Assembly: GCF_034259325.1 (NCBI RefSeq)
Contig: NZ_JAXIVS010000011.1
Coordinates: 124,001 to 188,000 of the forward strand
Direction of reading: 5' to 3'
Source: Hyalangium ruber
Lineage (GTDB): Bacteria > Myxococcota > Myxococcia > Myxococcales > Myxococcaceae
Length of the DNA: 64,000 bases
Shown: piece after piece, positions 4,081-53,601 of the stretch
How the letters are laid out: each line of letters starts with the position of its first letter
Numbering within the stretch: the first letter of the stretch is position 1
The notes under the pieces: generated by a model
Database searches by the model: none
What the model saw: only the letters and a program-made list of their open reading frames with translations
Told to the model about the DNA's origin: nothing
Position numbers and translations under genes: made by a program

Positions 4081-4099
4081 CGGAAGTAGGGAGGTTCAC

Positions 4100-36695: not shown

Positions 36696-37559
36696 ATGTC
36701 GGTGAAGAGCACCATCGAACATCTGGCTAGAACCGTAGAAGACCTTGGCATCCCCGGCCTGCGCGTCGACCAGGACACGCTCTCCTTCGATGAGCCAGTG
36801 GCGCTCGCGTGTATCGACTGCGACCGGCTCGAGTCCATCCAGGGGGACCTGGAGCGGCTCGTCCACCGGGTCAGCCCGGGTGGGATGATCTTCTTCGCCG
36901 ACTACAACTCCCTCGACAGCCGCCGAGCCTTCTTGGATGCCTGGGTCGTCGCGCATCCTGAGTTTCGGGTGCTGGAGGCAGGAGAGTCGTTGGTCGTGCA
37001 GCGACGCGCCAGGGAAGCCACCCAGGACCATGCCGCCTTGTGGGCAGACCCGGCCAGCGTGCAGGGGCGCTGGACCGAGCGCGCCCAGCTCGCTGCGGAC
37101 ATGGTGTCCCCAGGCTCGAGCGTGCTCGATATCGGGGCTGGGGGCATGGCCGTGCGGCGGCTCCTGCATCCCGCGTGTCGCTACACGCCCTCGGACTTCG
37201 TCCAGCGCAGCGAAGACTGCATCGTCGCGGACCTCAATGCGGGGCAGTTTCCACCGGGTCGCTGGGACGTGGTGACGATGCTGGGCGTGCTGGAATACAT
37301 CCAGGAGCCAGCGGCCGTGCTGACCCGCATCGGGGCCGCCGCGCCGCGGCTCGTCATGTCGTACTGTTGCCGCAAGGGTGCCTCCATCGCCTACCGGCGC
37401 AAGCTCACCTGGGTCAATGACTTCACCCCCGACGAGCTCGACGTGTTGCTGCGGCAGACGGGCTGGCGGATGGAGCGCGCGGTGGAGCTCAAGCGCCTGC
37501 CTACCTTCACGGAAGTGCTCCTCTCCTGCACGCGTGACGGGGCCTCGGAGACAGCGTAA
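36696..37559 (+). CDS. SAM-dependent methyltransferase with TylF-like N-terminal segment
   Basis: 287 residues. The N-terminal about 100 residues resemble the C-terminal end of TylF/macrocin-type O-methyltransferases (ACIDCDRLESIQGDLERLV, GGMIFFADYN). Residues about 125-240 are a class I methyltransferase with motif I VLDIGAGGMAVRRLL and VVTMLGVLEYIQEP. ATG follows the previous stop with no gap, so the genes are coupled. Target unknown; a sugar or surface polysaccharide is suggested by the neighbouring pyruvyl transferase. Confidence 0.75.
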   Translation: MSVKSTIEHLARTVEDLGIPGLRVDQDTLSFDEPVALACIDCDRLESIQGDLERLVHRVSPGGMIFFADYNSLDSRRAFLDAWVVAHPEFRVLEAGESLVVQRRAREATQDHAALWADPASVQGRWTERAQLAADMVSPGSSVLDIGAGGMAVRRLLHPACRYTPSDFVQRSEDCIVADLNAGQFPPGRWDVVTMLGVLEYIQEPAAVLTRIGAAAPRLVMSYCCRKGASIAYRRKLTWVNDFTPDELDVLLRQTGWRMERAVELKRLPTFTEVLLSCTRDGASETA

Positions 37560-37568
37560 AGAACGCTC

Positions 37569-38645
37569 GTGATCAAGTTCGGTCTGTCCTGCTATCGAAA
37601 CACCCGCAATCTGGGGGACGAGATCCAGAGCCTTGCCGCTCGTCAGTTCCTTCCGCGCGTGGACCACTTCATCGACCGTGACTTCCTCGCCGACTTCGTG
37701 CCCGGGGACGAGCAGCCCGTCGCGTTGATCCTCAACGGCTGGTTCGCCCACCGCGCTGAGAACTGGCCACCGGTCGAGAGCATCATCCCGCTGCCCGTCT
37801 CCATGCACCTCTCCTCCTTCCGAGGGTGGGGGCCGGCGGGAATTTCAGCCGAGCAGTTCTTCCTGCACCCCAGCGCTCGCGAGTACCTCGAGAAGTGGGG
37901 GCCCGTGGGAGCTCGGGACCTCCATACGCTCCAGCTCCTGAAGAAGGCGGAGGTGCCCGCGTATTTTTCCGGGTGCCTGACGCTCACCTTGAAGCGCAAG
38001 CCGGAGGCCGTGCGCGAGGACTTCATCGCGGCCGTGGATCTGCCCGCTGAGATCGTCGAAGCGCTCCGGAAGAGAACGGACCGACCGATCCTCACGCTCA
38101 CCCACGATGACACTGTGACCGCTGACGTGTCCGAGCGGTTCACCAAGGCCGAGCGCCTCCTGGACGCCTATCAACGCGCGCACTGCGTGGTGACGACGCG
38201 GCTGCACTGTGCCTTGCCTTGCCTCGCCTTCGAGACCCCGGTCCTCCTGCTCGACCAGAGCCCGGACCAGACCCGGTTCGCTGGGCTCCATCAGCTGCTT
38301 CGGCACAGCTCTCCCGAGGCGTTCCTGGAAGGGAAGGGGTTTCCCTTCGATCTCCAGAACCCCGAGCCCAATGACCTGGACTACCTGAAGCTCCGCAACG
38401 AGCTGACCTCCAGGGTCGAACAGTTCATCTCCGATGTGTCCTCCGAGCGAATCACCCCAGAGGCGCTCTCGGATGGGGGCTCCCTGCTCGCCCGCTACAA
38501 CACCCTCTGGGCCTTCTACACGGAGCTGCGCAAGCTCCGTGAGGTGACCTCTGCCGAGCTCGAGAAGGCTCGAAACGAAGTTCAGGAGCAGGCCAGGACG
38601 ATCGAACGCCTGACCCGTGAACTCGAGGCCGCCAGGGCCCGATGA
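37569..38645 (+). CDS. polysaccharide pyruvyl transferase family protein
   Basis: 358 residues. The N-terminus (SCYRNTRNLGDEIQSLAA), the central VGARDLHTLQLL and the VVTTRLHCALPCLAFETPVL segment match PF04230, whose members add pyruvate ketals to surface sugars. A coiled coil of about 45 residues ends the protein (LEKARNEVQEQARTIERLTR). Starts with GTG, nine bases after the methyltransferase gene. Its link to the peptide cluster that follows is uncertain. Confidence 0.85.
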   Translation: MIKFGLSCYRNTRNLGDEIQSLAARQFLPRVDHFIDRDFLADFVPGDEQPVALILNGWFAHRAENWPPVESIIPLPVSMHLSSFRGWGPAGISAEQFFLHPSAREYLEKWGPVGARDLHTLQLLKKAEVPAYFSGCLTLTLKRKPEAVREDFIAAVDLPAEIVEALRKRTDRPILTLTHDDTVTADVSERFTKAERLLDAYQRAHCVVTTRLHCALPCLAFETPVLLLDQSPDQTRFAGLHQLLRHSSPEAFLEGKGFPFDLQNPEPNDLDYLKLRNELTSRVEQFISDVSSERITPEALSDGGSLLARYNTLWAFYTELRKLREVTSAELEKARNEVQEQARTIERLTRELEAARAR

Positions 38646-38659
38646 AGGAGCGATTGAAC

Positions 38660-38932
38660 ATGGCCCATGTCCGTATCCCGACCCCACTTCGCGGCTACAC
38701 CCAGAACCAGAGTGAAGTGTCCGCCCAGGGCGCCACGGTGGGCGAAGTGCTCCAGGATCTGGAGCGTCGCTACCCCGGAATCGGCCCGCGCCTGCTCGAT
38801 GACAAAGGAAGTGTGCGGCGCTACGTGAACATCTTCCATAACGAGGAAGACATCCGGTTCCTCCAGGAACTATCCACGCCAGTGAAGGAGGGGGACCGCA
38901 TCACTCTCATCCCCGCCATCGCGGGTGGATAG
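38660..38932 (+). CDS. MoaD/ThiS-like ubiquitin-fold sulfur carrier
   Basis: 90 residues ending IPAIAGG, the C-terminal diglycine needed for adenylation and thiocarboxylation in MoaD, ThiS, CysO and PqsL-type carriers. The fold pattern fits (RIPTPLRGYT, VGEVLQDLERRYPG, VKEGDRITLIPAIAGG). ATG at 38660 follows AAGGAG at nine bases; an ATG six codons earlier overlaps the previous stop. No E1-like activating enzyme is next to it. It lies 3.5 kb from the YcaO-TfuA pair and may donate sulfur to it (inference). Confidence 0.85.
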   Translation: MAHVRIPTPLRGYTQNQSEVSAQGATVGEVLQDLERRYPGIGPRLLDDKGSVRRYVNIFHNEEDIRFLQELSTPVKEGDRITLIPAIAGG

Positions 38933-38972: not shown

Positions 38973-39764
38973 ATGAGCACGGCACAGCCATCCCCGGTCC
39001 CGGCTACGTCCAGCGTGTATGACGAGCTTGCCGAGCGCATCCCGGATCCGCGCTTCGTCTTCATGAATCACGGGTATGCAAGCTCCCAGGGCGAAGACTT
39101 CAGCTGGTTGAAGTCCAAGCTGGACTTCGCCTTCCGGTATTCCGTCAATTTGATCCGGCAGACGCTGGAGGGAGTCGACCTCACGGGCAAGGTCGTCCTC
39201 GACGTGGGCTGCGGCCGTGGCGGGCCGTGCTCCTACCTTGTCCGCTACGCGAAGCCCAAGAAGGTCTACGGACTCGACCAGTCCCAGGGGAACATCGATT
39301 TCTGCCGGCAGGCCCACCGCGCCCGCAATCTCCGGTTCATCCGTGGGGATGCGCAGGCGCTGCCGTTCGATGATGCAAGCATCGATGTCGTCCTGAACGT
39401 CGAGTCAGCGCACTACTACCCCGACCTCGCTGGGTTCTATCGCGAGGTCGCCCGGGTGCTCCGGCCCGGCGGTGTCTTCTGCTACGCGGACATCGTCGCG
39501 CCTGGAGAGGTCGCCCGGAACCAGCGCTGGATGAGGTCCGCGGGGCTGGAGCGGGTGCGGTCCGCCGACATCACCGATGATGTCGCGCGGGGCATCTATC
39601 TCGGCAGCTACCACCTGCACCGGCTGTTCTTCCAGATGATCGATCCGAAGCTTGGGAACGAGGAGGCTGTCGTCCGCCTCCTCAATCGGATCACCATCGA
39701 GCGGTATGCCGGCTATACGCAGCGCGAGAGGAGCTATCACCTCTGGCGAATGCGCCGGCCTTGA
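38973..39764 (+). CDS. SAM-dependent methyltransferase (small-molecule/peptide type)
   Basis: 263 residues, class I fold. Motif I VVLDVGCGRGGPCSYLV, acidic loop GLDQSQGNIDF, motif III GDAQALPFDDASIDVV and NVESAHYYPDLAGFYREVARVL-type motif IV are clear. Resembles mycobacterial phthiotriol-type and other natural-product O-methyltransferases. Converges on the ATP-grasp gene with six bases between them and could tailor the cluster peptide or a glycan. Confidence 0.87.
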   Translation: MSTAQPSPVPATSSVYDELAERIPDPRFVFMNHGYASSQGEDFSWLKSKLDFAFRYSVNLIRQTLEGVDLTGKVVLDVGCGRGGPCSYLVRYAKPKKVYGLDQSQGNIDFCRQAHRARNLRFIRGDAQALPFDDASIDVVLNVESAHYYPDLAGFYREVARVLRPGGVFCYADIVAPGEVARNQRWMRSAGLERVRSADITDDVARGIYLGSYHLHRLFFQMIDPKLGNEEAVVRLLNRITIERYAGYTQRERSYHLWRMRRP

Positions 39765-39770: not shown

Positions 39771-40736
39771 TCATCCGCCTGCCCACTCGAAGTCGGTCTT
39801 GCCCTGTCTGAGCATCTCGGCAAGGGCATCCAGCACTGGAAGGCGGGCCTCGCGCTCCAGCGGGAGCCAGTCGCCCCGTGCGTCGATGCCGAGGAACACA
39901 TAGCGGTCCCCATCCGTCAGGCCGAGTTCGAGGATCGCCGAGGCCAGGCCCAGTCTGCGCACGACTGCGAGACAGGCTGTCCCCAGGGGCTCTGGAAGGG
40001 TGTGGGGCTGAAGCTTGGAGGCTCGCGCGGCGCGTGGTTTCCCGGTCGGTCGCGCGGGCAGCGCCGCCGCGAAGAGGCGGCACCCGATGACGGCCACACG
40101 CACCTTCGTCACCCCGGGCGTGGTCTGTTGGAGCATGACCGGGGCTCGCCGGAAGAGTTCGGCATCCTGAAGGCTCTCTAGAGTGAGCGCTTTCTCTGGG
40201 GCCGCCGCTCGGGCACTGGCAGGCGGCGACAGCTTCATCCGCAGGCGCAGTACCTGCCCCTGGCACTCGCGGAAGAATTCGAGCGCGGCATGTGGGTCGG
40301 TCGTGACGAGGGTGGGCGGAATCTCGAGCCCGCTCTCCTGGGCCGCGCGGAGTTGAAGTGCCCGGTTGTCGGCGCCATGGCGGAGTCGCCAGGGCGGGTT
40401 GACCCAGAATCGCTCTCGCAGGTGCAGATAGAGCCCGGAGACGGTCTCGGTGCATTCCGCCTGGGCATATTGCTTCGCGACGGGGCTCCACTCTGGCGGG
40501 AGCGAGAAGCCCCGATAGGTCCTCATCCAGACCGTGCGGACCCTCTCCAGGGAGAGCATGCCCTGCTCGCTCTGGAGCAACCCTGGGACGTGTGGCGACC
40601 CGGGATGGAGCGTGACGGTCGCGGTGAGCGGCAGATCCTCGGGATGGAAGCGGAACGTCTCGGTGCCCTTCTTCCGCAACGCGGTCTCCAGGGCATCGGC
40701 ATGCCGGTCATCCGGATCGGCGATCAGCAGGATCAT
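39771..40736 (-). CDS. MvdD-like ATP-grasp protein with altered metal ligands
   Basis: 321 residues, end-to-end similar to the ATP-grasp gene at 53644 (shared RERFWVNPPW near 108-116, and RLGLASAILELGLTDGD). These resemble microviridin-type (graspetide) ligases that form ester or amide rings between side chains. Here the expected E-x-N metal motif reads FLGIDARGDW (E to G283, N to D285) and the upstream Asp is Glu270, so ligase activity may be lost. ATG at 40736 is chosen; it overlaps the upstream glycosyltransferase stop by four bases. Last gene of the minus-strand operon. Confidence 0.8.
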   Translation of the reverse strand: MILLIADPDDRHADALETALRKKGTETFRFHPEDLPLTATVTLHPGSPHVPGLLQSEQGMLSLERVRTVWMRTYRGFSLPPEWSPVAKQYAQAECTETVSGLYLHLRERFWVNPPWRLRHGADNRALQLRAAQESGLEIPPTLVTTDPHAALEFFRECQGQVLRLRMKLSPPASARAAAPEKALTLESLQDAELFRRAPVMLQQTTPGVTKVRVAVIGCRLFAAALPARPTGKPRAARASKLQPHTLPEPLGTACLAVVRRLGLASAILELGLTDGDRYVFLGIDARGDWLPLEREARLPVLDALAEMLRQGKTDFEWAGG

Positions 40737-42442
40737 TTCTTCTCTCTGGCCCGCTCGATGTAGCCGTACTTGAGGAGCCACATGAGGTGGCGACGGCCCC
40801 GGTCGCCAGACAACGCTGTCCGGCTCGCCGCCAGCGTGCGCATGACCGAGCTGATGCTCACAGGCGCCCCCTTTCCGTGAGCGAGCGCCTTGAGGATCTG
40901 CTCCACGGTGCCGCGATGGAGCGGTTCGGACCCCACGTAGCGGGGCGCGAGCTGTCCAACCCCCGTCAGCAGTTCCCGGCCGGGCTCGCCGAGCACGAGC
41001 TTGCTGCGGCCTGTGAGTATCTCGGTGGCGAAGCCCTGGAAGGCGTCGAAGTACCGAGGCGCAGTGTGCGGCAGGGCGCGGGGGGCTCGTCGCTTCAACC
41101 GGGTCGTCGTGGCGCAGAGTTCCCTCCAGAGCGCCTCGTACCGGGCGATGATCTGCTTCCACGAGAACGACGCCACCACGTGCTGCCGGGCGCGTTGCCC
41201 CATCTGGCGCCGGAGCGTCTCGTTGCTCATCAAGGACTGGAGGCGTTCGCGCAGGACCGTCAGGTCGATGGCGACCGACTGCGCGAGCGTGAGGTGGGCC
41301 ACCAGATCCGTGGGGAAGTCCAGCAGCGACCCGAGCGCGGAGACATCGGCATCGCAGCGCATCCAGGAGGTCGGTATCCGGAATCCGGTCTCCCCGTCGA
41401 TGACGGTGCTGCGATAGCCATCCCAATCGGAGACGACGGCGGGAATGCCACAGGCCATGGCCTCGAGGGGCGTCAAGCCGAACGTCTCGTGGACGTTGTC
41501 GATCGGCGACACGAACACGTCCGCCGCGGAGTAGTACAGGTGTCGTCGTGCCTTGTGCAGCTCGGACATGACCATCACCCGGTCACCGATGCCCTGCTGT
41601 GCCGCGTGCTCTCGGATCGTCCGCAGATGGGAGTCCGTACCAGAGCCCGCGAGCACGAGTAGGGGATTCTGCCGGGGGTTGTCCGCGACGAGCTGGCGGA
41701 AGACGCGCAGCAGCGGCAGGAGGTCCGCCTTGCTGTCGGGCGCGACGCGGCCCGCCCACAGCAGGATGAAGGCATCGCGCGGGAGACCCAACTGGTGGCG
41801 GACGTCGGATTGGTCACGCTCCCGGAACAGGAGTTCATCGACTCCGAGCGGGATGACGTCGAAGCGTCCGCGGTACTTCAGCTGGGTGCCGTGGGCCCGG
41901 TTGAAGGACTCCTCGACCTGGCCCATGAGGGCGGCCAGTGCATCGCGCGTAGTGGGAGAGATGCACACGACGGAGTCACAAGGCCGGACGTCGAGCAGCA
42001 GCAGCTGGAGGAACCACGAGTGGCGCAGGTGCCGACGGCTGATGACATGCGGCGTGATCGTGATGGGGTAGGGCGTCCGGGCATGCATCTGGCGGAGCGC
42101 GAACGGACGCTCGGCCTCGCCTGTGATGTCGTGCCAGTGCGTGATGCCTTGTCCATCGAGGCCGCTCAGCAGCGTGCCGTAACCGTCCACCGTCGCGACG
42201 TCAGCGGGGCGGTGCCAGCGCCGCAGCAGGTGTTGCACCTCGGCACGGGTGGTCTCGACGTTGCCTGGCGACGAGAAGAACCGCGGCCGGGACTCGCCAT
42301 GCGCGAGCGTCGCGGTCACGAAGTCCTCGATCGCGACGTGCATTCCCCCGACGAGGGCGTCGGCGGGAGACCGCTGGGCGTCGAAGAACATGCCCAACAC
42401 CGGTGCTTGGGCCGCTTTCTCGGCCGGGGACTTTCTTGCCAC
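40733..42442 (-). CDS. GT4-family glycosyltransferase
   Basis: 569 residues. The GT-B nucleotide-binding half is clear: WAGRVAPDSKADLLPLLRVF, LAGSGTDSHLRTI and the E-x7-E type segment ETFGLTPLEAMACGIPAVVS. About 100 residues follow the catalytic domain, ending in a helical stretch (VSISSVMRTLAASRTALS). Translationally coupled to the ATP-grasp gene and following YcaO, so it may glycosylate the cluster product; the sugar is unknown. Confidence 0.88.
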   Translation of the reverse strand: MARKSPAEKAAQAPVLGMFFDAQRSPADALVGGMHVAIEDFVTATLAHGESRPRFFSSPGNVETTRAEVQHLLRRWHRPADVATVDGYGTLLSGLDGQGITHWHDITGEAERPFALRQMHARTPYPITITPHVISRRHLRHSWFLQLLLLDVRPCDSVVCISPTTRDALAALMGQVEESFNRAHGTQLKYRGRFDVIPLGVDELLFRERDQSDVRHQLGLPRDAFILLWAGRVAPDSKADLLPLLRVFRQLVADNPRQNPLLVLAGSGTDSHLRTIREHAAQQGIGDRVMVMSELHKARRHLYYSAADVFVSPIDNVHETFGLTPLEAMACGIPAVVSDWDGYRSTVIDGETGFRIPTSWMRCDADVSALGSLLDFPTDLVAHLTLAQSVAIDLTVLRERLQSLMSNETLRRQMGQRARQHVVASFSWKQIIARYEALWRELCATTTRLKRRAPRALPHTAPRYFDAFQGFATEILTGRSKLVLGEPGRELLTGVGQLAPRYVGSEPLHRGTVEQILKALAHGKGAPVSISSVMRTLAASRTALSGDRGRRHLMWLLKYGYIERAREKK

Positions 42443-42488: not shown

Positions 42489-43640
42489 TCAGATCGAGAT
42501 CGTGAGTCGTGCTCCCGGAACCATGACCTTCACGACCACGACCTCCGCGAGCCGCTGGCTCAGGTTCACCCGATATGCGCCCTGGAAGCCACCCTGCTGG
42601 AGGCTCTCGAGGACATGCTGGTAGTCGCGGGTCAGATCGTGGCTCGAGCGTTCCTCCAGCTCATCCCAGCTCGTGTCAGGAGTGAGCTGCGAGAAGAACG
42701 AGTACAGCCGCTGGTGGCTGCCGCCACCTTGGTAGGCCGCCTCCGAGAGGTCGTCCCGGGAGCCGTGGATGAAGGTGAGCCGCGATTGGGCGGCCTCGGT
42801 GATCGCCCGTGTCGCGGCCACCGAGGGACTCAGGTGGGCGCCGTAGCCCAGGTTCACCGTCGAGGCGTGGCTGAAGGGCGAGGAGTCCAGCAGGACAGCC
42901 ATGAACGTATGCGTGGGCAGCTCGCTCGGTGCTCGCAGCAGCACGAGCCGGAGCTCGGAGCGCTCGACCTGCTCCCGGAGCACGCCGACCACTTCGTCGG
43001 TGACGGTGTCGAGGTCGATGACATCGCACCGGCCCAGGTGGATCCGATTGCCTTCGGAGAGGCGTGAGAGGGTGTCTCGCTCGATCAACTCATACAGGCT
43101 GTGGAGCGTCGCCTCGGTGAGGTGGTTGCCGCTGGCCAGACCGTTGAACGAGTACCGGTGATGCTGGTGCCGGTAGTAGTAAGCGGTGAACGCTGGGAGC
43201 CAGAGCGCCTCTCCGGAGTGCAGGTCCTCGCCCTGGACCCAGTCGAGCACCTGGTCCTCCGTGAAGTACGCCGAGGACCAGAAGCCCTCGAGGCTCTCCG
43301 GTGAGACGATACGGGCGCCATCTCGGCGTAACTGCCCAAGCGAGGCGCGATGAAAGGGCACCGCAGGGTTCTCGGCGTGCCAGTGCTCGATCGACTCCAT
43401 CAGCGCCGACACCTGGGCATCGACGTGGCGAAGCCCCTTGCCGTTGGAGGTCTGCAGCACGCGCCCTTGCGGACGGATCGCGACGTAGACCGGGATGCCG
43501 GTGCAGTCGAGTCCGGTGATGTCCGCGCAGCGGGTGATGCCGAAGGAGCGCAGATGCGGTCGGATTCGCTCGAGGGTCGTCTCTGGAGAGACGACCCGAT
43601 GCGTCCCGCGCATGTAGGCCTTGGGAAGTTCGAGACTCAT
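42489..43640 (-). CDS. YcaO-domain protein (peptide backbone-activating enzyme)
   Basis: 383 residues. The ATP-binding motif TSNGKG (64-69) and the SALMESIEHWHAE helix (78-90) with the Mg-binding Glu residues are intact, as is the HSLYELIERDTLSRL segment. YcaO enzymes use ATP to phosphorylate a backbone amide, giving azolines (Cys/Ser/Thr) or, with TfuA, thioamides. The C-terminus (KVMVPGARLTISI) lacks the PxPxP end of azoline-forming YcaOs. Its ATG overlaps the TfuA stop by four bases, and the pair is diagnostic of thioamidation systems. Confidence 0.92.
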   Translation of the reverse strand: MSLELPKAYMRGTHRVVSPETTLERIRPHLRSFGITRCADITGLDCTGIPVYVAIRPQGRVLQTSNGKGLRHVDAQVSALMESIEHWHAENPAVPFHRASLGQLRRDGARIVSPESLEGFWSSAYFTEDQVLDWVQGEDLHSGEALWLPAFTAYYYRHQHHRYSFNGLASGNHLTEATLHSLYELIERDTLSRLSEGNRIHLGRCDVIDLDTVTDEVVGVLREQVERSELRLVLLRAPSELPTHTFMAVLLDSSPFSHASTVNLGYGAHLSPSVAATRAITEAAQSRLTFIHGSRDDLSEAAYQGGGSHQRLYSFFSQLTPDTSWDELEERSSHDLTRDYQHVLESLQQGGFQGAYRVNLSQRLAEVVVVKVMVPGARLTISI

Positions 43641-45067
43641 GACGGCTGCCCAGGGGTCAGGAGGCTGGCGGTGCGTCCCGACAGCTGGAGCTCCTGGACG
43701 ACGGCGACCTCGAGATCATGCGCGCGTCCGAACCGGGTAGGGCCCTGCGCGATGACCCACTCCGCGAGTGCCCGCTCCTCGAGGACGCGGAGGAGTCGCT
43801 CCGGTGCGAGCTCGAGTGAGCGGGCGGCATCCACCTGGCTGGTGGCGGAGCCCAGCCCCCACGATGCGAAGAGGGCGTCGCGTTCAGCGGGGGGACACCG
43901 CACGCCGCTCTCGCGAGCCCAGGCCACGATGAAAGCCCGCTCCTCGGCCTCGGAGGTCCGCGGGGGCCGCTCTCGGGACAGGTGCGCTTCGAGTCGGGCC
44001 ACGGCATCTCGATCCCATTCCAGTCCGAATGCTCCGGGGCCCGACTCGAGCAGCCAGGACAGCAGGGCGCGCTCGGCGAGCAAGGCCGTGTGCTCCTGGC
44101 GCGTCAACCCGTGGGCACGTGCCCAGGTCCCCGCGTCCACGACGTCGTTCGCGCGGGCCCAGTGGCTCTCGAAGGCCCGCACGGAGGTCTCTGGGCAGGT
44201 CAGCTCGCGCTGGCGCGCCCAGTCGAGGATGAACCACTGGCGCAACACGCGCTGGCTCGTGGCGTCCCAGAGTTCCTGGGACTGGCGCGCCGCGCGGAAG
44301 AGGGTGTGCCCCGCGACGGGCGTGGTGCCACTTCCCAGCTGACGGAAGCCCAGGCTCACGCGCTGGAACTCCTCGCGCCACAGATCCACCCGGTCACTCG
44401 AACCAGACCGGCCCACCCGCTCCCGCTGGGCGCAGTGCCGCAGGACGCCACTCGCGTCGCGAGACTTGAGGTCCACGGCGTTCTCGCGCAGGTACTGCTT
44501 CCACTCCGCCACTCGCGGCTTGGGCCAGTCGCGCAGCAAGGGGCACTCGAGAAGGCGGCGGTACGAACGCTCGGGGTAGTACGTCTCTCGCATGAAGGTC
44601 AGGAGTCGCTCCGACTCATCTTCCGAGAGCTTTCCGTCGGCCACCGCCTGGCGCAGGGTGTAGCGGATGTTGACGAGCGGCTCCGACAGCGCGCGATACC
44701 CCATGTCCTCGGGAGCGTGGCGCAGCGCCACTTCATCGTCCGCGTTGATGAGACCATCGCGGTACCACTCGAAGATGGTGCCGTACCCCACCATCCCGAA
44801 GGAGTGGAGCTCCGCGGCGCGGAGCGCACCCATGCTGCTGGCTCCGAATACCTCGATGCCCTCGTCCAGCGCGGCGAGCAGCTCCCGCTGCCAGATGGAG
44901 GGCCCGCTGTGGAAGATTCCATCGATCAGGACGATGGTCTTCACCCCGGAGGCCAGCACCCGGTAGATGTCGCCCTTGCGCGCCGGCGGGCGGTACTCGG
45001 CGTCCAGGATGGCTCGGGCCCGTTCCTGGCTGAGGGACGGGCCTAGGAAGACGATGACCGATGCCAC
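43637..45067 (-). CDS. TfuA-like protein with two C-terminal helical repeats
   Basis: 476 residues. The N-terminal about 215 residues match the TfuA core: VIVFLGPSLSQERARAIL, IVLIDGIFHSGPSIWQRELL, GASSMGALRAAELHSFGMVG. TfuA partners YcaO in peptide backbone thioamidation. The C-terminal half carries two similar segments, about 278-363 and 378-463, each with WAR..., CP..., ERAL..W and FG landmarks, an internal duplication of near 100-residue period. TfuA cores are usually near 220 residues, so this extension is unusual. Coupled to YcaO; four bases upstream of it lies the first JmjC gene. Confidence 0.9.
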   Translation of the reverse strand: MASVIVFLGPSLSQERARAILDAEYRPPARKGDIYRVLASGVKTIVLIDGIFHSGPSIWQRELLAALDEGIEVFGASSMGALRAAELHSFGMVGYGTIFEWYRDGLINADDEVALRHAPEDMGYRALSEPLVNIRYTLRQAVADGKLSEDESERLLTFMRETYYPERSYRRLLECPLLRDWPKPRVAEWKQYLRENAVDLKSRDASGVLRHCAQRERVGRSGSSDRVDLWREEFQRVSLGFRQLGSGTTPVAGHTLFRAARQSQELWDATSQRVLRQWFILDWARQRELTCPETSVRAFESHWARANDVVDAGTWARAHGLTRQEHTALLAERALLSWLLESGPGAFGLEWDRDAVARLEAHLSRERPPRTSEAEERAFIVAWARESGVRCPPAERDALFASWGLGSATSQVDAARSLELAPERLLRVLEERALAEWVIAQGPTRFGRAHDLEVAVVQELQLSGRTASLLTPGQPS

Positions 45068-45071: not shown

Positions 45072-46421
45072 CTAGCGCGCCTCGGACCGGACGCGCTTCT
45101 TCGCGGACGGCTTCGTGGCCCGCTTCACGGGCAGCTTCGTGGATGAGCGGGCTGGCCGCGCGGCGGCCTCTTCGACCTGGATGGCACGCATCGAGTAGAG
45201 CCGCCCGAGCATCGACCGGATGAACGCGGCATCCAGCGCGTACTGCTTCTTGCGGACCGTCGCCTCGCCGCTGTGCTTCTTGATCAGTTCACGCACCTTG
45301 TACTTCTGGCCGCTGTTCAGATCGCGGAACAGCTCGACGAGCTTGGGGTGCGCCTGGACGGCGAACGAGTGCCCATAGATGGCGCCAAGCAGCTGCCCCT
45401 CCTGCACCTGGAACAGGACCGGCTCGGAAGGATCGACCCAGACCGTGTCGGTGTCCTTGAGCTCACGCGGCTCCTGCTTTGGCGCGGCCTCGAGCCCCAG
45501 GCCGCTCAAGCGGGCGAGCCACTTGCGAGAGACCGCCAGACGCAGGTCCGTGCCAATGCTCTCGAAGGCCTCCAGCATGGTGTTGAGGTTCTCGGGCATC
45601 TCCGGCGAGCGGCGTGCCTTGTCCGGCTGGAAGGAGGGGATCGTCTGGCTCTTCTCGACCTTGCTGAGCCGCGAGTCGATCAGCTTCGTGGCGTCTCGCT
45701 GGATCGACTCGATCCAGTAGTGCTTGTGGACCGCCATCAGGATGCTGAGCTGGAGGGCGGGCTCGGAGCCGGCCTCCGAGACGTGGTAGTAGCCCTGGGG
45801 GATGTAGAGAACGTCGCCCGGCTCGAGATCGAACGTCTGGGCCTCCCCGAGGATGGACTCGTAGCCGGCATGCCCGACCAGATGGGGGTGGCGCTGCAGC
45901 ACTTCGGGCGCCCACATCCGGAAGCGCTTGCGCCCATCGAGCATCACCAGGAGGTTGTCGATGGGATCCTCATGGACACCGAATCCCGTGACCTCGGTGC
46001 GGCTGTACCAGATGACCGCGTCGGTGCTCTCCGGCACGCCGATCTCCGAGTAGAGCCCCTTGACGAAGCCGCGCGCCTGTCGCCACAGCCCGATGTCCCA
46101 GGTATGTGCCTTGTTCAGCACGACCGCGAAGCCACGCCCGTTGAGCGCCTCCGTCACACGGCGCGTGTAGTCCTCGATCGACGCATCATTGGAGGGCAGG
46201 AAGCCCCGGGCATCGAACTCCCGGTAGGACTTGTCGACGAAGAAGCGCAGGGCGACCTGCTCGCCAGGCTTGTTGGCGGACTTGCTCGCCGCCGAGAGGA
46301 TCCGGAACGCGTCATGCTTGGCCAGGAACTCTGTCGGGAAGAGCTTGCGGAAGTGTACGGGCTGCTTCCGCCAGTAGCGAGCAACGAAGTCAGGCCAGTT
46401 CAGCTGAAACGGCGCCACCAT
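45072..46421 (-). CDS. JmjC/cupin-like iron oxygenase (1)
   Basis: 449 residues. The cupin_4/JmjC core has the 2-His-1-carboxylate set H150-E-D152 (GFGVHEDPIDN) and H213 (IPQGYYHVSE), with the LDGRKRFRMW strand between. Family members hydroxylate protein or peptide side chains with 2-oxoglutarate and oxygen. A winged-helix-like C-terminus ends in a basic tail (RATKPSAKKRVRSEAR). ATG at 46421 follows CAGGAG; the frame is open 41 codons upstream. Paralogous to the next gene. Confidence 0.87.
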   Translation of the reverse strand: MVAPFQLNWPDFVARYWRKQPVHFRKLFPTEFLAKHDAFRILSAASKSANKPGEQVALRFFVDKSYREFDARGFLPSNDASIEDYTRRVTEALNGRGFAVVLNKAHTWDIGLWRQARGFVKGLYSEIGVPESTDAVIWYSRTEVTGFGVHEDPIDNLLVMLDGRKRFRMWAPEVLQRHPHLVGHAGYESILGEAQTFDLEPGDVLYIPQGYYHVSEAGSEPALQLSILMAVHKHYWIESIQRDATKLIDSRLSKVEKSQTIPSFQPDKARRSPEMPENLNTMLEAFESIGTDLRLAVSRKWLARLSGLGLEAAPKQEPRELKDTDTVWVDPSEPVLFQVQEGQLLGAIYGHSFAVQAHPKLVELFRDLNSGQKYKVRELIKKHSGEATVRKKQYALDAAFIRSMLGRLYSMRAIQVEEAAARPARSSTKLPVKRATKPSAKKRVRSEAR

Positions 46422-46435: not shown

Positions 46436-47713
46436 TCAATCCACGGCCCCTGGGAGCAGGGACCCCAATTCCAATGCACGCACGCGATGGAGCTGCGTGA
46501 GCAGTTGATGGGCCTCGGCGCGGTCGGAGGCGGACCAGTGCCACGTCGCCGTCTGCTCATCGAGCAGCGCACCGACGCGCCACCGCTGGCCACTGTTGAG
46601 GCGCTCCACCAGCGCCTGGACACCCTCGCTCGCGCGTGTCACGAACGAGTGCCCCCGCGCGGCCCCCACCAGCGAGTCGCCCAGGGCGTATAGCAGGATG
46701 GGGTTGTCGGAGTCGCCCTGGAGCGTATCGTCGTCGGTAATGGCGCGCGTATCCCGCTCCTGCGGGGGACCAAGCCCGAGGCTCGTCAGCCGCGCCAGCC
46801 AGCCCCGGGCCACCTGGAGCCTCATGCTGGAGCCGATGCCCGAGAAGGCATGGGTCAGCTGCTCGAGGTGCTCGGGTAGGGGAGCTGTCACCTCACCCCC
46901 TTGGGGGGGGATCAGCGGAATCGTCATGCTCGCGGGCACCTCGCGGAGCTGGGGCTCCTGCGCTCTCCACATCGAGCCCCGGAACCAGTCGAGCCAGAGC
47001 ATTCGCTCGGAGGTGATGGCGAGGCTGAACTGGAAGCACGGTTGGTTGTCGCCCTCCACGACGTGGTAGTAGCCCTGGGGGATGTAGAGCATGTCCCCGG
47101 GCTCCAGATCGACGATGAGACTCTGGTCTCGGATTCCCAGATAGGTGGTGTCGTTCACCACCTCGGGGTGGGCGCGGATGATGTCCGTGGGCCACAGCAG
47201 GAACCGCTTGCGGCCCGTGAGCACGAAGATGAGGTGATCGAACGGATCATTGTGGACACCGAAGCCACTGACGCCTGCCCGGCTCAGCCAGAAGACCAGG
47301 TCCGTGTTCTCCGGGATCCCGACACCTTCGTAGAGCTCTTGCAGGAAGGTACGGCACCGCAGCCACAACGAGTCATTCCAGGCCTCGGCATGGTTGAGCG
47401 CCAGCACGAAGTTCTGCCCGGGCAGCTGGGTGGCCAGCCGCTGCGTATACGCCTCGAGGGACTTGTCCGCGAGCGGCAGAAAGGGCCTGGGGTCCGACTC
47501 CTTGAAGCCCTTGCCCGTGAAGAAGTGGAGCGGGACGCGGCTGCCTGGCTTCTCCGCCGTTGCCCGACTCGCCGTGGCGAAGATCTCGAAGCCCTCATCG
47601 GGCGAAAGAAGCCCCGGCCGGAACGCCGCTGGGAAATGCACTGGAGCCTTGCGCCAGTACCGCGCAATGAAGTTCTTCCAGCCGATCGGCGGCGCTGACG
47701 TCATGGTGCTCAT
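46436..47713 (-). CDS. JmjC/cupin-like iron oxygenase (2)
   Basis: 425 residues, paralogue of the preceding JmjC protein and separated by 14 bases. Metal ligands H154-N-D156 (GFGVHNDPFDH) and H217 (IPQGYYHVVEG) are intact. The start is ambiguous between ATG 47713 and 47704; both lack a strong ribosome site. Probably the first gene of the six-gene minus-strand operon (JmjC2, JmjC1, TfuA, YcaO, glycosyltransferase, ATP-grasp). Likely hydroxylates the precursor peptide (inference). Confidence 0.85.
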   Translation of the reverse strand: MSTMTSAPPIGWKNFIARYWRKAPVHFPAAFRPGLLSPDEGFEIFATASRATAEKPGSRVPLHFFTGKGFKESDPRPFLPLADKSLEAYTQRLATQLPGQNFVLALNHAEAWNDSLWLRCRTFLQELYEGVGIPENTDLVFWLSRAGVSGFGVHNDPFDHLIFVLTGRKRFLLWPTDIIRAHPEVVNDTTYLGIRDQSLIVDLEPGDMLYIPQGYYHVVEGDNQPCFQFSLAITSERMLWLDWFRGSMWRAQEPQLREVPASMTIPLIPPQGGEVTAPLPEHLEQLTHAFSGIGSSMRLQVARGWLARLTSLGLGPPQERDTRAITDDDTLQGDSDNPILLYALGDSLVGAARGHSFVTRASEGVQALVERLNSGQRWRVGALLDEQTATWHWSASDRAEAHQLLTQLHRVRALELGSLLPGAVD

Positions 47714-47764
47714 TCTCGGTTGTTCAACGGGCCAGGCCGCGCGCGAGGCACTGGCGCGGCGCAT

Positions 47765-47792
47765 CGTATATGTCGGGCCTCTCATGCGTAAA
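47765..47792 (-). promoter_or_regulatory. candidate promoter of the minus-strand tailoring operon
   Basis: On the minus strand, TTTACG (47787-47792) and TATACG (47765-47770) with 16-base spacing, about 52 bases upstream of the ATG at 47713. It lies in the 180-base divergent gap, whose AT-rich stretch stands out from its surroundings. Weak match. Confidence 0.3.
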
Positions 47793-47893: not shown

Positions 47894-49291
47894 ATGGTGC
47901 TCCCTCCAAAACTCTTCGTGGAGCTGGCGGCCATGCCGCGGCTCGAGGCGTGGTTTCTGGGCGGCGTGCTCCACAGGCTGCTGCAGGCGAAGTTCGAGCC
48001 GCGGGGGTGCCGCGCGGTGCTGGAGCGCATGAATGGCCGGGTGACGCGTCCCGTGCTTCGCCCCCAGTGCGTGGATGACGGAGGGATGGTCATCGATGAC
48101 AGCGCGCTGTTCCCCGAGCCCGGTCCCTGGCAATTGGACTTCCAGGCGCCCGAAGCAAAGTGGAACTCCGAGCTGCCCGCGGACGTGCTCCCGGCCATTG
48201 CCCACTTCCTTCGCCTGGCCACCCACACGGAGGATGTCCAGGGCCTGCGCGAGGTGTGGCCCTTCCAGGAGGAGGACGCGCTCGAACTGCTTCGTCCCAC
48301 GCCTCCTCCCGAGGTGCGCTGGCCCGTGCCGGACAAGCCCGGCATCTATCGTCGCGAGCACGCGAGCCTGCTGCTCCGATCGCGCACGACGAGCATTCTG
48401 GTGGATCCGGTCAGCCTGGATCGCCGCATGCCCTACATGAGCGAGGCGCCGGTCCACCTTCCTTCCCAGGGCGTGGACGCCGTGGTCATCACCCACGGCC
48501 ACGGAGACCACTGGCACCTTCCCTCGCTGCTGACCCATCTGGCCACGCCAGACGTTCCGGTGCTGGTGCCGCGCATGCCCCGCATCAGCCTCCTCTCCCC
48601 CCAGCATTTCGAGGCGTCCCTCAGGGCGTGTGGCCAGAACGTGCTGGCGCCCGCCTGGGGAGAGACGGTGAAGGTGGGGGACATCGAGATCGACATCCTG
48701 CCCTTCTATGGCGAGCAGCCCGCGCGAGAGGGGCCTGCCCTGAAGCCGGGCTTGCGCAACTGGGGCAACTGCTACCGCTTCACCACGGAGGACTTCTCGT
48801 GTGTGTTGTTGGTGGATGGCGGAACCGACCCCGCGGGGAGCATGGAGCACGTGCTGGCCAGTTCCTTCGCGCGGCGTGGCCCCGTCGATGTGCTCCTAGC
48901 GTGCCAGCGAGAGTTCCAGTCCCCCTTCTTCGGAGGACTGAGTGACATCTGGGCGGCGCTGCCATGGGCGCAGCTGTGCGGCCTCCACGAGGACTACCAG
49001 CGGGGGCAGTTGAAGAACACGACAGCCGGGACCCAGGGGATCGCCGAGGCCTGTGGCGCGGCCGGGTCCCGCTACTTTCTCGCCTATGCCAACGGTTTCC
49101 AGGGGGTGGGCAAGCCGATCACGGACATCGGCTGGGGCAGTGGTGAGCCCTCTGAAGCCGCCTGCAACGGACTGCTGCGCGAGCAGCTGAAGCGCCGAAA
49201 CATCACCACCGAGGTCCCCGAGTGGAGCCCCGGGGACGCGGCGTGTTTCTCGCGAGGGCAGCTGTCGTTGGAGCGGCCCTCTCTTCGCTGA
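47894..49291 (+). CDS. MBL-fold metallohydrolase in the peptide cluster (1)
   Basis: 465 residues. An about 150-residue N-terminal helical region is followed by a metallo-beta-lactamase fold with intact metal motif THGHGDHWH (200-208) and the VVITHGHGDH strand. The layout REHASLLL...ILVDP, PVLVPR, GETVKVGDIEIDILPF matches the MBL protein at 59409, so the two are paralogues. Such proteins recur in peptide clusters but their reaction is rarely known. Divergent from JmjC2. ATG at 47894. Confidence 0.83.
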   Translation: MVLPPKLFVELAAMPRLEAWFLGGVLHRLLQAKFEPRGCRAVLERMNGRVTRPVLRPQCVDDGGMVIDDSALFPEPGPWQLDFQAPEAKWNSELPADVLPAIAHFLRLATHTEDVQGLREVWPFQEEDALELLRPTPPPEVRWPVPDKPGIYRREHASLLLRSRTTSILVDPVSLDRRMPYMSEAPVHLPSQGVDAVVITHGHGDHWHLPSLLTHLATPDVPVLVPRMPRISLLSPQHFEASLRACGQNVLAPAWGETVKVGDIEIDILPFYGEQPAREGPALKPGLRNWGNCYRFTTEDFSCVLLVDGGTDPAGSMEHVLASSFARRGPVDVLLACQREFQSPFFGGLSDIWAALPWAQLCGLHEDYQRGQLKNTTAGTQGIAEACGAAGSRYFLAYANGFQGVGKPITDIGWGSGEPSEAACNGLLREQLKRRNITTEVPEWSPGDAACFSRGQLSLERPSLR

Positions 49292-49297: not shown

Positions 49298-50419
49298 CTA
49301 CCGACGGGCCTTCTCCGCGCCGCGCGTCTGCTCGACCCACTGGCGCCAGGCCGCCGCATCTTCGCCGAGATCCTTCCCCGCCAGGATGGTGAGCACCTTG
49401 CGAGCGGGCTCGGCGTCGGTTTTCTGCTGCATGCCCGCCATCTCCACGAGCATCGCGCCCGCCTTGTCGAGGATCTGCTGGCGGTGAGCGGCACCCTCGG
49501 TCTCCACGATACGAACGAGTGCCCAGGCCGCCTTGTTGCGGTCCGTCACGAGCGGATACCAGAGCGCTTCCAGGACGGGCTCGAGGGGGATGATGACGCG
49601 CTTCTGGCCCGCCTGCGCCGTACCGAGCAGGCGAAGCGCCTCGTTGCGCACGCCCTCGAAGGAATCGCGCACCGACGGGAGGATGATCCGCACCAGCTGC
49701 TCGCGCGAGTGGAGGTAGGGCAGGAGCATGAGCGCGGTCATCCGCTTGGAGCTGTCACGGTCCTCGCGCAGCACGCGCGTGAGCGCCTCGGCGTTGCGAG
49801 GCACTCCGTCGATGAAGCGCTGTTCCAGGGGCACGAGTTCGGAGTGATCAAAGCCGCCGTAACAGTTGATGGCACGGCAGCTGCCCTTGCTGTATTCGGG
49901 AACCGCGCCTTCACTGCTCAGTTTCCAGTAGGTCTTCTGATAGTCCCCCCATGCGGCGAGGAGGCCCTCTGGATCCGGGATGTCGCCCTGCGGCTCGGGG
50001 GAGAAGCGCATGCGCCACTCGTCTCCGGGATCGACCAGATCCACGGTCACACGGAAAGTATGGGTCGGCGGGTAGGCGACGAGTGAGTACCGGCAGAAAG
50101 GGAAGTTGTAGGCGGCCAGGAGGCGGGGCTTGCTCTCGATGAGGTACGGGGTGAATTCCCCCTTCTCGAGATCGAAGCGAGTGCCCGGGGCGGGCAGACC
50201 GATGAGCTCGAGCAGCTTCTCCTTGGGCACCTTGTGCGAGCCGAACACCTCCACACCCTCGAACACATAGGTGGACGTGGGAGGGACTGGCGCAGCGCTC
50301 TGTGCGGAGGGGGCCGCCTCGGGCGCGGCAGCGGTCTGGGCAGAGGGGGCTCCGACGGTCTGGCGAACGGGAGCGGAGCAGGCGGTGAGAAGGACGAGTG
50401 CGAGGACGAGGTATTTCAT
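49298..50419 (-). CDS. lipoprotein with HEAT-like repeats
   Basis: 373 residues. Signal peptide with lipobox LLTAC (VLALVLLTACS) and an Ala/Pro-rich linker. The C-terminal half (about 215-350) has helical repeats of HEAT type (ALTRVLREDRDSSKRMTALM, VRNEALRLLGTAQAGQ). A middle beta region (YSLVAYPPTHTFRVTVDLVD) is unassigned. Located beside the precursor gene and convergent with the MBL gene. A role in immunity or peptide handling is possible but unsupported. Confidence 0.75.
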   Translation of the reverse strand: MKYLVLALVLLTACSAPVRQTVGAPSAQTAAAPEAAPSAQSAAPVPPTSTYVFEGVEVFGSHKVPKEKLLELIGLPAPGTRFDLEKGEFTPYLIESKPRLLAAYNFPFCRYSLVAYPPTHTFRVTVDLVDPGDEWRMRFSPEPQGDIPDPEGLLAAWGDYQKTYWKLSSEGAVPEYSKGSCRAINCYGGFDHSELVPLEQRFIDGVPRNAEALTRVLREDRDSSKRMTALMLLPYLHSREQLVRIILPSVRDSFEGVRNEALRLLGTAQAGQKRVIIPLEPVLEALWYPLVTDRNKAAWALVRIVETEGAAHRQQILDKAGAMLVEMAGMQQKTDAEPARKVLTILAGKDLGEDAAAWRQWVEQTRGAEKARR

Positions 50420-50683: not shown

Positions 50684-50851
50684 ATGGCGAACAAGTCCGA
50701 GCAGAAGAAGGTCACCACCAAGAACAACGACAAGGCCAAGAAGCAGCCCCTCGCCCTCGAGTTCATCGAGGACACGGACCTGGCCAACGTCTCCGGCGGC
50801 GCCATCCCCATCTCCAGCAACACTGGCGGCGACGTCGTTTGGGGCTACTAA
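50684..50851 (+). CDS. RiPP precursor peptide with double-glycine leader
   Basis: A 55-residue peptide behind a strong ribosome site (GGGAGAGACATC). Leader residues 1-39 are Lys/Asp/Asn-rich and end DLANVSGG, matching the double-glycine consensus at -12 (I), -8 (D for E), -7 (L), -4 (V), -2 and -1 (GG). Predicted core is residues 40-55, AIPISSNTGGDVVWGY. It has no Cys, so lanthionine is impossible. Modifiable residues are Ser44, Ser45, Thr47, Asp50, Pro42, Trp53 and Tyr55. The gene sits between the two enzyme blocks and ends in a strong terminator. It is too short for usual gene callers. Confidence 0.9.
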   Translation: MANKSEQKKVTTKNNDKAKKQPLALEFIEDTDLANVSGGAIPISSNTGGDVVWGY

Positions 50852-51057: not shown

Positions 51058-52335
51058 ATGAACCGTTCCGCGCCTTCGCGCGCATTCTGGCGCCGTTTCA
51101 GCGCTCGTCATTGGCTCGAGTCACCGCTGCACCAGCAGCAGCCTCGGGTTCCGTTTCAGTTGACCCCCGACGAGCTCTTCGCGGCGCTGGTCGCGGCGAG
51201 TGAGGCCTCTCAGGGGGGCTCTGCCTCGGGTCTGGTGCGGTTCTACATCGGCGATGCGCTCGTGCCGGACACCTCCTACCTGCCGGCTCGTACCGATGGT
51301 TCGCTCGACGCCTACGTCGAGCGTCTGGAGCGCCTTCTGCAAGGGCGCAAGTTCGGGCTCATCGTGAACGCGATCCAGGGGCACAGCTTCGCGCTCTGGT
51401 CCCGCCTTCGTGAGTTCCTGCACGGCTTCTATCAAGCCACCGGTGTTCCGCCCTACGTGGCGGAGGCGGGGATCTTCTTCGGGAACTACGAGTCCACGGC
51501 GTTCGGCGTCCATCAGGACCAGGTCGACGTGATGATGTTCGTGCTGCGAGGGCGCAAGACCATGCGCTTCTGGGAGCCTACGGCGCTTGAGCTCCCCGAG
51601 GTCGTGCGCCACCGACACGCGTACCAGCCACTCCTGTCACGGTCGACCAGCGCGCGCGCGGAAGCCGGTGACTTCGTGTACTGGCCAGCGGGCCACTGGC
51701 ACGTCGGAGAGTCCGAAGGCCTCTCGCTGACACTGAACGTCGCACTGGGGACCCGTGGCGGAACGGCGGCGAACCCCACTCCCATGATGTCCCCCGCCGA
51801 GGTCGTTGCCTCCGCTGTTCGTGGCGTGCTGAGCGCCCGGATGCCGCCCTCGAGCGCTGTCCAGCAGCGAGGCAGCGAACTCGCCCTTGCTGGGAGTAAG
51901 CCCGTGCCCCTCGCGAAGTCGCTCCGGGCCGCGGTCAAGATGCTGCGTGAGTCGATGCGTGATGGAGAGTTGGAGTGCAGGCTGCTCGCCGCGGATCTGA
52001 GCCGGCAGACGGGTTTTGGCTTCCAGCCGATTCCGTCGCTGCTACCGTCCCGGACGATTTCGCACGAGGACGTCGTTCGTGGGGATGAGAGGTATCCCAT
52101 CCTGTGGGCGCGCGCGGGCGACAAGCTCGTGCTCTCGGCCAACGGACGGGCGCTGACGACTTCGTTCCAGCCGGTGGTGGTGCGCGTGCTCAAGCGATTG
52201 AACCAGGGCCTTCCGGTTCCGGTCTCCGCCTTCGTGCGCCAGCGGCGTCCGGTGTCGGAAGCGGTGATCCCACTGCTCGAGCACCTGTATCGCTGTCGGG
52301 CCATCTCGCTTGCCGAGCCCTCCTTGCGAGAGTGA
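51058..52335 (+). CDS. JmjC/cupin-like iron oxygenase (3)
   Basis: 425 residues, third JmjC paralogue in the cluster. Ligands are H152-Q-D154 (AFGVHQDQVDV) and H215 (AGHWHVGES); the second half is winged-helix-like and more divergent from the others. It starts a plus-strand run with the P4H-like gene, ATP-grasp gene and LanB gene. Likely hydroxylates the core or leader-bound precursor (inference). ATG at 51058 lies 90 bases past the precursor terminator. Confidence 0.86.
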   Translation: MNRSAPSRAFWRRFSARHWLESPLHQQQPRVPFQLTPDELFAALVAASEASQGGSASGLVRFYIGDALVPDTSYLPARTDGSLDAYVERLERLLQGRKFGLIVNAIQGHSFALWSRLREFLHGFYQATGVPPYVAEAGIFFGNYESTAFGVHQDQVDVMMFVLRGRKTMRFWEPTALELPEVVRHRHAYQPLLSRSTSARAEAGDFVYWPAGHWHVGESEGLSLTLNVALGTRGGTAANPTPMMSPAEVVASAVRGVLSARMPPSSAVQQRGSELALAGSKPVPLAKSLRAAVKMLRESMRDGELECRLLAADLSRQTGFGFQPIPSLLPSRTISHEDVVRGDERYPILWARAGDKLVLSANGRALTTSFQPVVVRVLKRLNQGLPVPVSAFVRQRRPVSEAVIPLLEHLYRCRAISLAEPSLRE

Positions 52336-52365
52336 GTCGGGGCCCTCTACGATCCCTTGCAGGCA

Positions 52366-53601
52366 ATGGAAGCTCAAACCCTGATACTCAATCCAAACAT
52401 GCGGGTCGCGGTGAGACGCGACGGGGAGCAGTGGCAGTCGATCTTTCTCGCCTCGCCCATCAAAGGGCGGGACCTGCGCATCAAGGTCGTCAACAGCGAC
52501 AACCCCTCGCTGTTCGAGGCCGTGCGGGAAATCGTCCAGTCGGGGGAGATCGACGCGGACTGCATCGCGCGTCATGAGGCGGATCTCACCCGCCTGGGGG
52601 TGCTGATCGGCGCCGCCGAGGTCTCCCGCCCAGTGGTCTTCCATTGCTGGTTGACCGAACCCGAAAGCGGCGAGCGCGCGGGCCACGCCTCGCACGAGGA
52701 CGCGGACCTGGGAGATCTCGTCGGCGCACCCGTCCTCGTGTACCAGCCGCCCGGTACAGCGCTGCCCGACGTCCTGCGAGAGCGGGTGTTGCTCGAGAAG
52801 CAGTTCGCGTGGGGGGCTCCGGAGAGCTGGTTCGCGCCAGGCTGTGGACGACTCTGGGTGGAGGATCCCGGCACGCGCATCCTGGCGGTCTTCAGTGTTC
52901 CAGCGCACCTCGAGTCGATCGTCGCATCGCTCCGGCCCGATGAGCCTCCGCCCTCCTCGCTGACGGCCGAGACGAGCCGGCTCTTGAGGCGCGCGAACGT
53001 CCTGGTCACGAGGGGCTTCGCGGCACACCGCGCGGAGGAGTGGGAGCGGACGTGTGATGAGGCGCGGCGACGCTTCGCCTCGGATGGCTTCGTGAACGTC
53101 GAGGGGCTGCTGCACCCCCTGCAGCTCGTGGCGCTGCGCCACTACCTTCGAGAGTTCGTCGCGGAGGGACACGCCGAGCTGACGAAGGAAGAGACGGTGT
53201 GCTACGGCGCCCACAACGAGGGCGTCTGCCGGTACCTGCACCATCAGCTCTCGGGGCTGGTGGGCAGGATCGTCGGCAGGGAAATCAAGCCGTCATACAC
53301 GTACTTCCGTACCTATCGGCCTGGCGCGGTGCTCGAGAGACACCTCGATCGGGAGCCCTCGCACTACAGCATCTCGTTCCTGGTCGATTACACGCCCGAG
53401 AGTGCGGATCGCTCGCCCTGGCCGCTTTGTCTGGAGCCAGGCTCGGGCGGCGTGGTGCCTGTATTCCAGCGGCGCGGGGACGGCGTCTTCTTCGAGGGCA
53501 TCAAGGTTCCACACTTCCGGGATCGGCTGGCCGCTGGCTGCACCTCGACATCGGTCTTTTTCGAGTACGTGCCGAAGGAGTACAGCGGCCCCCTGCGTTG
53601 A
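52366..53601 (+). CDS. P4H-like 2OG-Fe(II) oxygenase with uncharacterised N-terminal half
   Basis: 411 residues. The C-terminal about 190 residues resemble prolyl-4-hydroxylase-type oxygenases: H326-L-D328 (VLERHLDREP), the SFLVDYTPE strand, and H383 (IKVPHFRDR). The usual Arg/Lys about ten residues after the last His, which binds 2-oxoglutarate, looks like Thr393 by eye. The N-terminal half is not recognised. ATG at 52366; a TTG lies three codons earlier. Follows JmjC3 by 30 bases. Confidence 0.78.
   Translation: MEAQTLILNPNMRVAVRRDGEQWQSIFLASPIKGRDLRIKVVNSDNPSLFEAVREIVQSGEIDADCIARHEADLTRLGVLIGAAEVSRPVVFHCWLTEPESGERAGHASHEDADLGDLVGAPVLVYQPPGTALPDVLRERVLLEKQFAWGAPESWFAPGCGRLWVEDPGTRILAVFSVPAHLESIVASLRPDEPPPSSLTAETSRLLRRANVLVTRGFAAHRAEEWERTCDEARRRFASDGFVNVEGLLHPLQLVALRHYLREFVAEGHAELTKEETVCYGAHNEGVCRYLHHQLSGLVGRIVGREIKPSYTYFRTYRPGAVLERHLDREPSHYSISFLVDYTPESADRSPWPLCLEPGSGGVVPVFQRRGDGVFFEGIKVPHFRDRLAAGCTSTSVFFEYVPKEYSGPLR

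Follow-up and report, generated by a model that had tools for sequence, protein, structure and literature searches.

In methanogens a YcaO enzyme and its partner TfuA (MJ1094, PDB 6pe3; MaTfuA, PDB 6xp8) thioamidate a glycine of McrA, and a YcaO-TfuA pair is also part of the thioamitide pathways (thioviridamide/thiostreptamide S4 type), which yield ribosomally synthesised and post-translationally modified peptides (RiPPs). RiPP loci with such a pair are already well known, and links of TfuA with ThiS, radical S-adenosylmethionine (SAM) enzymes and split LanB have been reported, some of the 613 TfuA-related gene-cluster families mined containing these genes or glycosyltransferases (PMC8120280). 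A stretch of 64,000 nucleotides of Hyalangium ruber (Myxococcaceae; contig NZ_JAXIVS010000011.1, positions 124,001 to 188,000), here called the window, carries a further pair on its reverse strand. With a probability of roughly three in four, this pair is the thioamide-forming module of a RiPP pathway located on an island of ~29.9 kb. The first-pass annotation of the window had proposed a backbone thioamide or an azoline. The thioamide is supported by the fold and the conserved Ser and Lys of TfuA, the residues M/H/A of YcaO, the scores against the McrA models and a sulfur carrier encoded on the island; the azoline is disfavoured, as a grouping with the azoline enzymes LynD/TruD/MusD is rejected and the predicted core peptide lacks Cys.

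The YcaO gene (42489-43640, reverse strand, ATG start) encodes a predicted ATP-dependent amide activator of 383 aa, matching Pfam YcaO over 325 of 325 model positions (E 6e-69). The TfuA gene (43637-45067, reverse strand, GTG start) encodes 476 aa with an N-terminal TfuA domain (residues 1-220; Pfam TfuA E 3e-46, 119/119 model positions) and a C-terminal tandem helical repeat. The four-base overlap described in the first-pass annotation is present as ATGA at 43637-43640, providing the stop of TfuA and the start of YcaO. Both genes display a coding-type GC pattern by codon position which, with the Pfam matches, rules out chance or misread open reading frames (ORFs). The operon runs JmjC2, JmjC1, TfuA, YcaO, glycosyltransferase and ATP-grasp A; TfuA thus precedes YcaO, whereas the order is YcaO to TfuA in 41 of 41 other Myxococcaceae pairs (40 regions). 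A second, unlinked YcaO-TfuA pair is present in the same genome (L085, contig C1, ~1.099 Mb). Adjacent pairs of the L085 kind occur in several genomes of the family, and TfuA was found in 83 out of 96; L085 could be a protein-thioamidation system.

The N-terminal 220 residues of TfuA match the archaeal protein of PDB 6xp8 in sequence (E 4.5e-46), and the model of TfuA superimposes on this structure with a Z-score of 27.2 and 2.2 Å over 212 residues. Among 148 TfuA proteins, including 6xp8, no Ser or Lys other than S78 and K201 is conserved in more than 90%, and these two are present in 99%. According to later papers that cite the mechanism, thiocarboxylated ThiS (ThiS-COSH) is hydrolysed by TfuA through a Ser-Lys pair (PMC13185837, PMC8939145). 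Judging from their conservation, S78 and K201 probably correspond to this catalytic pair. The C-terminal half (residues 250-476; 43637-44320, reverse strand) is a tandem duplication of a helical unit of ~100 residues, with 36 of 101 positions identical and a score of 110 against 30 ± 5 for shuffled sequences. The repeat is missing from 6xp8 (217 aa), and a fold search started from the TfuA model gave no entries for this half, which was barely tested by the tool.

In the YcaO protein, all positions conserved in at least 95% of 168 aligned YcaO sequences are kept, including G67, K68, G69, E82, E85, E184, E187, R188, E282, Q285 and R295; the retained ATP motif noted earlier is thus confirmed, as is the lack of the PxPxP end of azoline enzymes, the C-terminus reading ...VKVMVPGARLTISI with GARLTISI as final residues. 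Within the ATP motifs the protein carries M81, H180 and A284. Met, His and Ala are the preferred residues in three ATP motifs of TfuA-linked YcaO proteins (Malit 2021, PMC8120280), the correspondence with that numbering being our own mapping. The same three residues are found in MjYcaO and in four thioamitide YcaO proteins, while LynD, TruD and MusD have C, Q and N. Against the NCBIfam models, YcaO scores 218.5 bits with TIGR03266 (McrA thioamidation) and 107 bits with SagD (azoline).

In a tree of 63 rows, YcaO groups with enzymes whose genes follow TfuA or are fused to it (support 99/94), and a tree of 36 rows without the long rows recovers the same TfuA-first clade (100/97); the trees are unrooted and contain long branches. 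Members of this clade come from Cyanobacteria, Chloroflexota, SAR324, Planctomycetota, Verrucomicrobiota, Acidobacteriota, Myxococcota and others. Phylogeny had been proposed as a check on the type of chemistry. Its outcome is divided: in the 36-row tree the approximately unbiased (AU) test rejects a grouping with the azoline clade LynD/TruD/MusD (p 1.9e-7), and it also rejects one with the McrA and thioamitide enzymes (p 2.8e-4), so that simple membership in either of the latter clades is ruled out. The thioamitide references were four Streptomyces genomes (L207-L210) with thiostreptamide-type cores (SVMAAAATVAFHC) near YcaO-TfuA. Phylogeny therefore excludes kinship with azoline enzymes and does not prove thioamidation. 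Within the clade, TfuA and YcaO are fused in one protein in two Acidobacteriota (L118, 8294-11119; L119, 8324-11131). By eye, the member from a Richelia metagenome-assembled genome (L111) adjoins a LanM-like gene accompanied by a GG precursor, and that of Hyella (L106) several Nif11-like and other GG-leader precursors.

The pair is situated on a sharply bounded island running from 36696 to ~66623, an extended coordinate past the window end. On the left it is flanked by a GGDEF/response-regulator gene following frr, which ends at 36.66 kb and has the same end in five relatives. The next conserved gene lies 24-140 bases downstream in these relatives and resumes at 66.607 kb here. As the whole island is lacking in 5/5 relatives, the pair moves together with the precursor, the enzymes of modification and the exporter.

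A 55-aa ORF at 50684-50851 (forward strand) is the candidate precursor peptide, with the leader ...EDTDLANVSGG and the core AIPISSNTGGDVVWGY. It is the island's only small GG-leader-like ORF with codon bias, is preceded by the ribosome-binding site GGGAGAG and gives weak matches to bacteriocin-leader models; the C39-peptidase exporter recognised by eye fits its GG leader. The predicted core has 16 residues and a mass of 1634.794 Da, and contains Asp11 together with Ser5, Ser6 and Thr8 and no Lys or Glu. Since it has neither Cys nor Met, a product containing sulfur would have acquired it by modification, most likely from the pair. The mass change of +16 foreseen in the first-pass annotation holds in that exchange of O for S adds 15.977 Da, but a nominal +16 is not diagnostic in this locus: this value is nearly isobaric with the +15.995 of an added O (PMC13063428), the change expected from each of the island's three JmjC-type oxygenases.

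A CysO/SAMP1-type sulfur carrier with the end ...AIAGG is encoded at 38642-38932 (forward strand; homologous part from 38660; NF041918, PF02597). It scores 62.6 bits with NF041918, above the cut-off of 60, and its best PDB matches are the CysO-type carriers 3dwg_C and 4n6e_B, with which it shares the sequence family and GG end; unlike these, it is a second copy situated in a RiPP island. In 72 of 90 positions (80%) it is identical to a paralogue on contig C5 (L201, ~3940-4212, reverse strand), which adjoins a ThiF-family gene. By eye, a JAMM-type peptidase gene also adjoins this paralogue. With five ThiS matches in the 10.77-Mb genome, ~0.014 would be expected by chance per 29.9 kb, and of 79 other YcaO-TfuA loci, five contain ThiS-like genes. 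The CysO co-opted in 2-thiosugar biosynthesis is a precedent for reuse of such a carrier. ThiS has been found in TfuA gene clusters (Malit et al., PMC8120280), and thioamide-forming systems outside high-sulfide habitats tend toward ThiS homologues and TfuA (PMC13063428). The island carrier presumably feeds the TfuA of the pair.

Comparison with described systems places the pair among the probable TfuA-dependent thioamide formers, given the adjacent genes, the fold and Ser/Lys of TfuA and M/H/A in YcaO. With the methanogen pair it shares the protein families, the TfuA fold, the Ser and Lys and the residues of MjYcaO; it differs in the clade of its YcaO, its setting in a RiPP island, the gene order and a TfuA of 476 aa with C-terminal tandem repeat compared with 217 aa. 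The thioamitide loci are likewise RiPP pathways with a YcaO-TfuA pair, but the window YcaO lies outside their clade, the core lacks the SVMAAAATVAFHC pattern and the other enzymes form a different set. The families of Malit 2021 (PMC8120280) are the same kind of locus, with ThiS and tailoring genes beside tfuA. ATP-grasp loci of graspetide branch 6 are associated with YcaO and TfuA (PMC8939145); the ATP-grasp peptide ligases next to YcaO-TfuA are a common feature, and LanB and JmjC set the window apart. In the std cluster of Streptomyces thermodiastaticus (PMC13174530), YcaO-TfuA thioamidation is followed by hydroxylation of one peptide, carried out by an MNIO in place of the predicted JmjC proteins of the window, and the cores are unrelated. 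The predicted precursor, LanB and ATP-grasp enzymes and the C39-ABC exporter (by eye) are those of a RiPP cluster, and the ATP-grasp ligase is of the MvdC/MvdD/SAV_5884 kind known from graspetides. Apart from its full LanB, the locus does not fit a class I lanthipeptide: the core is without Cys, and no LanC was recognised among the island proteins in family searches. The combination of full LanB, two ATP-grasps, three JmjC proteins and an own CysO-type carrier was absent in 40 family regions and 79 named loci.

Several observations weigh against a thioamide-forming RiPP module. TfuA scores 232.6 bits with NF033432, just under the cut-off of 235.2, and the 218.5 bits of YcaO are below the TIGR03266 equivalog cut-off of 365, so that neither protein qualifies as a McrA glycine thioamidation protein. 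The AU test separates YcaO from both the McrA and thioamitide enzymes, and no characterised member of its clade was found. When 96 family genomes were searched, the precursor matched only itself, which leaves the core without comparative support. A RiPP recognition element (RRE) was not demonstrated: the protein encoded at 52357-53601 (forward strand) looks, by eye, RRE-like at its N-terminus and 2-oxoglutarate-oxygenase-like (HxD...H) at its C-terminus, but neither the whole nor its halves gave a family or PDB match backing these domains, and its AlphaFold model, made of the protein alone, was too poor for use (pLDDT 35). Finally, the carrier gene sits in a different, convergent operon beside methyltransferases, and the carrier may serve another step.

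Among other activities for the pair, azoline formation would have YcaO cyclise Ser5, Ser6 or Thr8 with the amide before it to one or more oxazolines (-18.011 Da), with TfuA in a structural role. YcaO does belong to the cyclodehydratase superfamily, the core offers two Ser and one Thr, and the activation step is common to azoline and thioamide enzymes (PMC5589413). This route is nonetheless very unlikely, being rejected by the tree and by M/H/A in place of C/Q/N: neither the clade grouping nor the C-terminal PxPxP of azoline-forming YcaO proteins is found, the core is free of Cys, and no E1-like/ocin-ThiF partner or SagB-type dehydrogenase was recognised among the island proteins. To our knowledge, TfuA is also absent from azoline systems. 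Amidine formers exist among stand-alone YcaO proteins without PxPxP, and given a clade with no characterised member found, YcaO might use nitrogen (amidine/macrolactamidine, bottromycin-type) or another nucleophile, TfuA only activating the nucleophile. This is the least probable of the alternatives; the conserved Ser and Lys of TfuA and the sulfur carrier point to sulfide, and we know of no report that amidine-forming YcaO proteins require TfuA.

It is also unlikely that the pair thioamidates a different substrate, either a cellular protein or a peptide from another locus, although YcaO enzymes are known to thioamidate proteins (McrA; uL16, PMC13063428), the second pair and its counterparts in the family may point that way and no further example of the 55-aa precursor is known. 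The island of the pair also encodes precursor, RiPP enzymes and exporter; pair and island are missing together in relatives, and the operon includes RiPP-type ATP-grasp and JmjC genes. A separate question is whether the carrier serves another sulfur step of the island, the pair drawing on housekeeping sulfide. Its location in another operon, between the pyruvyl-transferase-like and methyltransferase genes, and the small number of loci with a ThiS-like gene nearby (5/79) would agree with this, but the island proteins include no other enzyme recognised as inserting sulfur, and supply of the pair by the carrier is considered the more probable, with the other option a real though lesser chance.

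For a thioamide-forming module, gene content, island, conserved residues, TfuA fold and carrier paralogy are given in the DNA itself, and a mechanism may be drawn from characterised relatives. The C-terminal GG of the carrier would be thiocarboxylated by an E1 encoded elsewhere (the ThiF homologue on contig C5), after which TfuA would bind the carrier and hydrolyse the thiocarboxylate with S78/K201 to release sulfide. YcaO with ATP would activate a backbone amide of the precursor, and sulfide would replace the oxygen (+15.977 Da per site). For the modified residue one may guess at Gly9/Gly10 or Asn7, after thioGly in McrA and thioAsn in StdA. LanB would dehydrate Ser/Thr of the same peptide, the ATP-grasp ligases may link Ser/Thr to Asp11, and the JmjC enzymes would hydroxylate it; a JmjC protein acts as ornithine hydroxylase in a further RiPP pathway, that of biphenomycin (PMC12707348). 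The C39-ABC exporter would cleave after VSGG and secrete the product. Tentatively, and at slightly less than even odds, the locus may represent a new RiPP class with a sulfur-free core of 16 residues, a backbone thioamide with dedicated CysO-type carrier, LanB dehydration, ATP-grasp cross-links and several JmjC hydroxylations, from a TfuA-first clade with long TfuA in which no characterised member was found.

The remaining genes of the island are as follows, on the forward strand unless stated. The island begins with a SAM methyltransferase (36696-37559, PF13489), a polysaccharide pyruvyl transferase family protein (37569-38645, PF04230 4e-17) and, after the carrier, a SAM methyltransferase (38973-39764, PF08241 2e-25). 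On the reverse strand, ATP-grasp peptide ligase A of the MvdD/SAV_5884 type (39771-40736; PF21068 2e-12, TIGR04187 1.5e-48) overlaps by 4 bases a group-4 glycosyltransferase (40733-42442, PF00534 1e-24) in the operon of the pair. JmjC/cupin-type oxygenase 1 (45072-46421, reverse; PF08007 9e-13, HED...H metal motif) is encoded 4 bases upstream of TfuA, followed by oxygenase 2 (46436-47785, reverse; PF08007 8e-12), the true start of which is possibly internal. Then come a metallo-beta-lactamase-fold hydrolase (47894-49291, PF12706 5e-12) and a HEAT-repeat lipoprotein-like protein (49298-50419, reverse; PF13646 6e-5, below cut-off). JmjC/cupin-type oxygenase 3 (51058-52335, PF08007 5e-9) adjoins the precursor; the protein without family assignment (52357-53601) is followed by ATP-grasp peptide ligase B (53644-54690, TIGR04187 1.7e-65) and a full-length LanB-type dehydratase (54687-57950; PF04738 4e-153, PF14028 7e-64). 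Both ATP-grasps remain below the TIGR04187 subfamily cut-off of 350, while PF21068 is above its own. Further on are a SAM methyltransferase (57976-59277, reverse; PF13847 6e-13), a second metallo-beta-lactamase-fold hydrolase (59265-60950, PF12706 7e-10), a radical SAM/SPASM enzyme (60969-62309, reverse; PF04055 1e-19, PF13186 9e-13) and an HlyD-family export adaptor (62397-63470, PF13533/PF13437). In the contig sequence past the window end, a second adaptor ORF (~63254-64417) and the C39-peptidase ABC exporter (64407-66623, assigned by eye) complete the island. JmjC homologues occur in 36 of 195 genomes of the phylum, with YcaO-TfuA in none of 10 of their loci inspected. Tandem JmjC genes are present in many Myxococcaceae (L223-L232), several near a homologue of the island ABC exporter, and these loci perhaps form a separate family of JmjC-modified peptides.

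The pair is a member of a YcaO-TfuA clade that extends over many phyla and for which no characterised member was found, and its sulfur-free core makes a clean test of sulfur addition. The linked carrier, if it does feed TfuA, would reveal the way in which sulfide for thioamides is provided in an aerobic soil bacterium.

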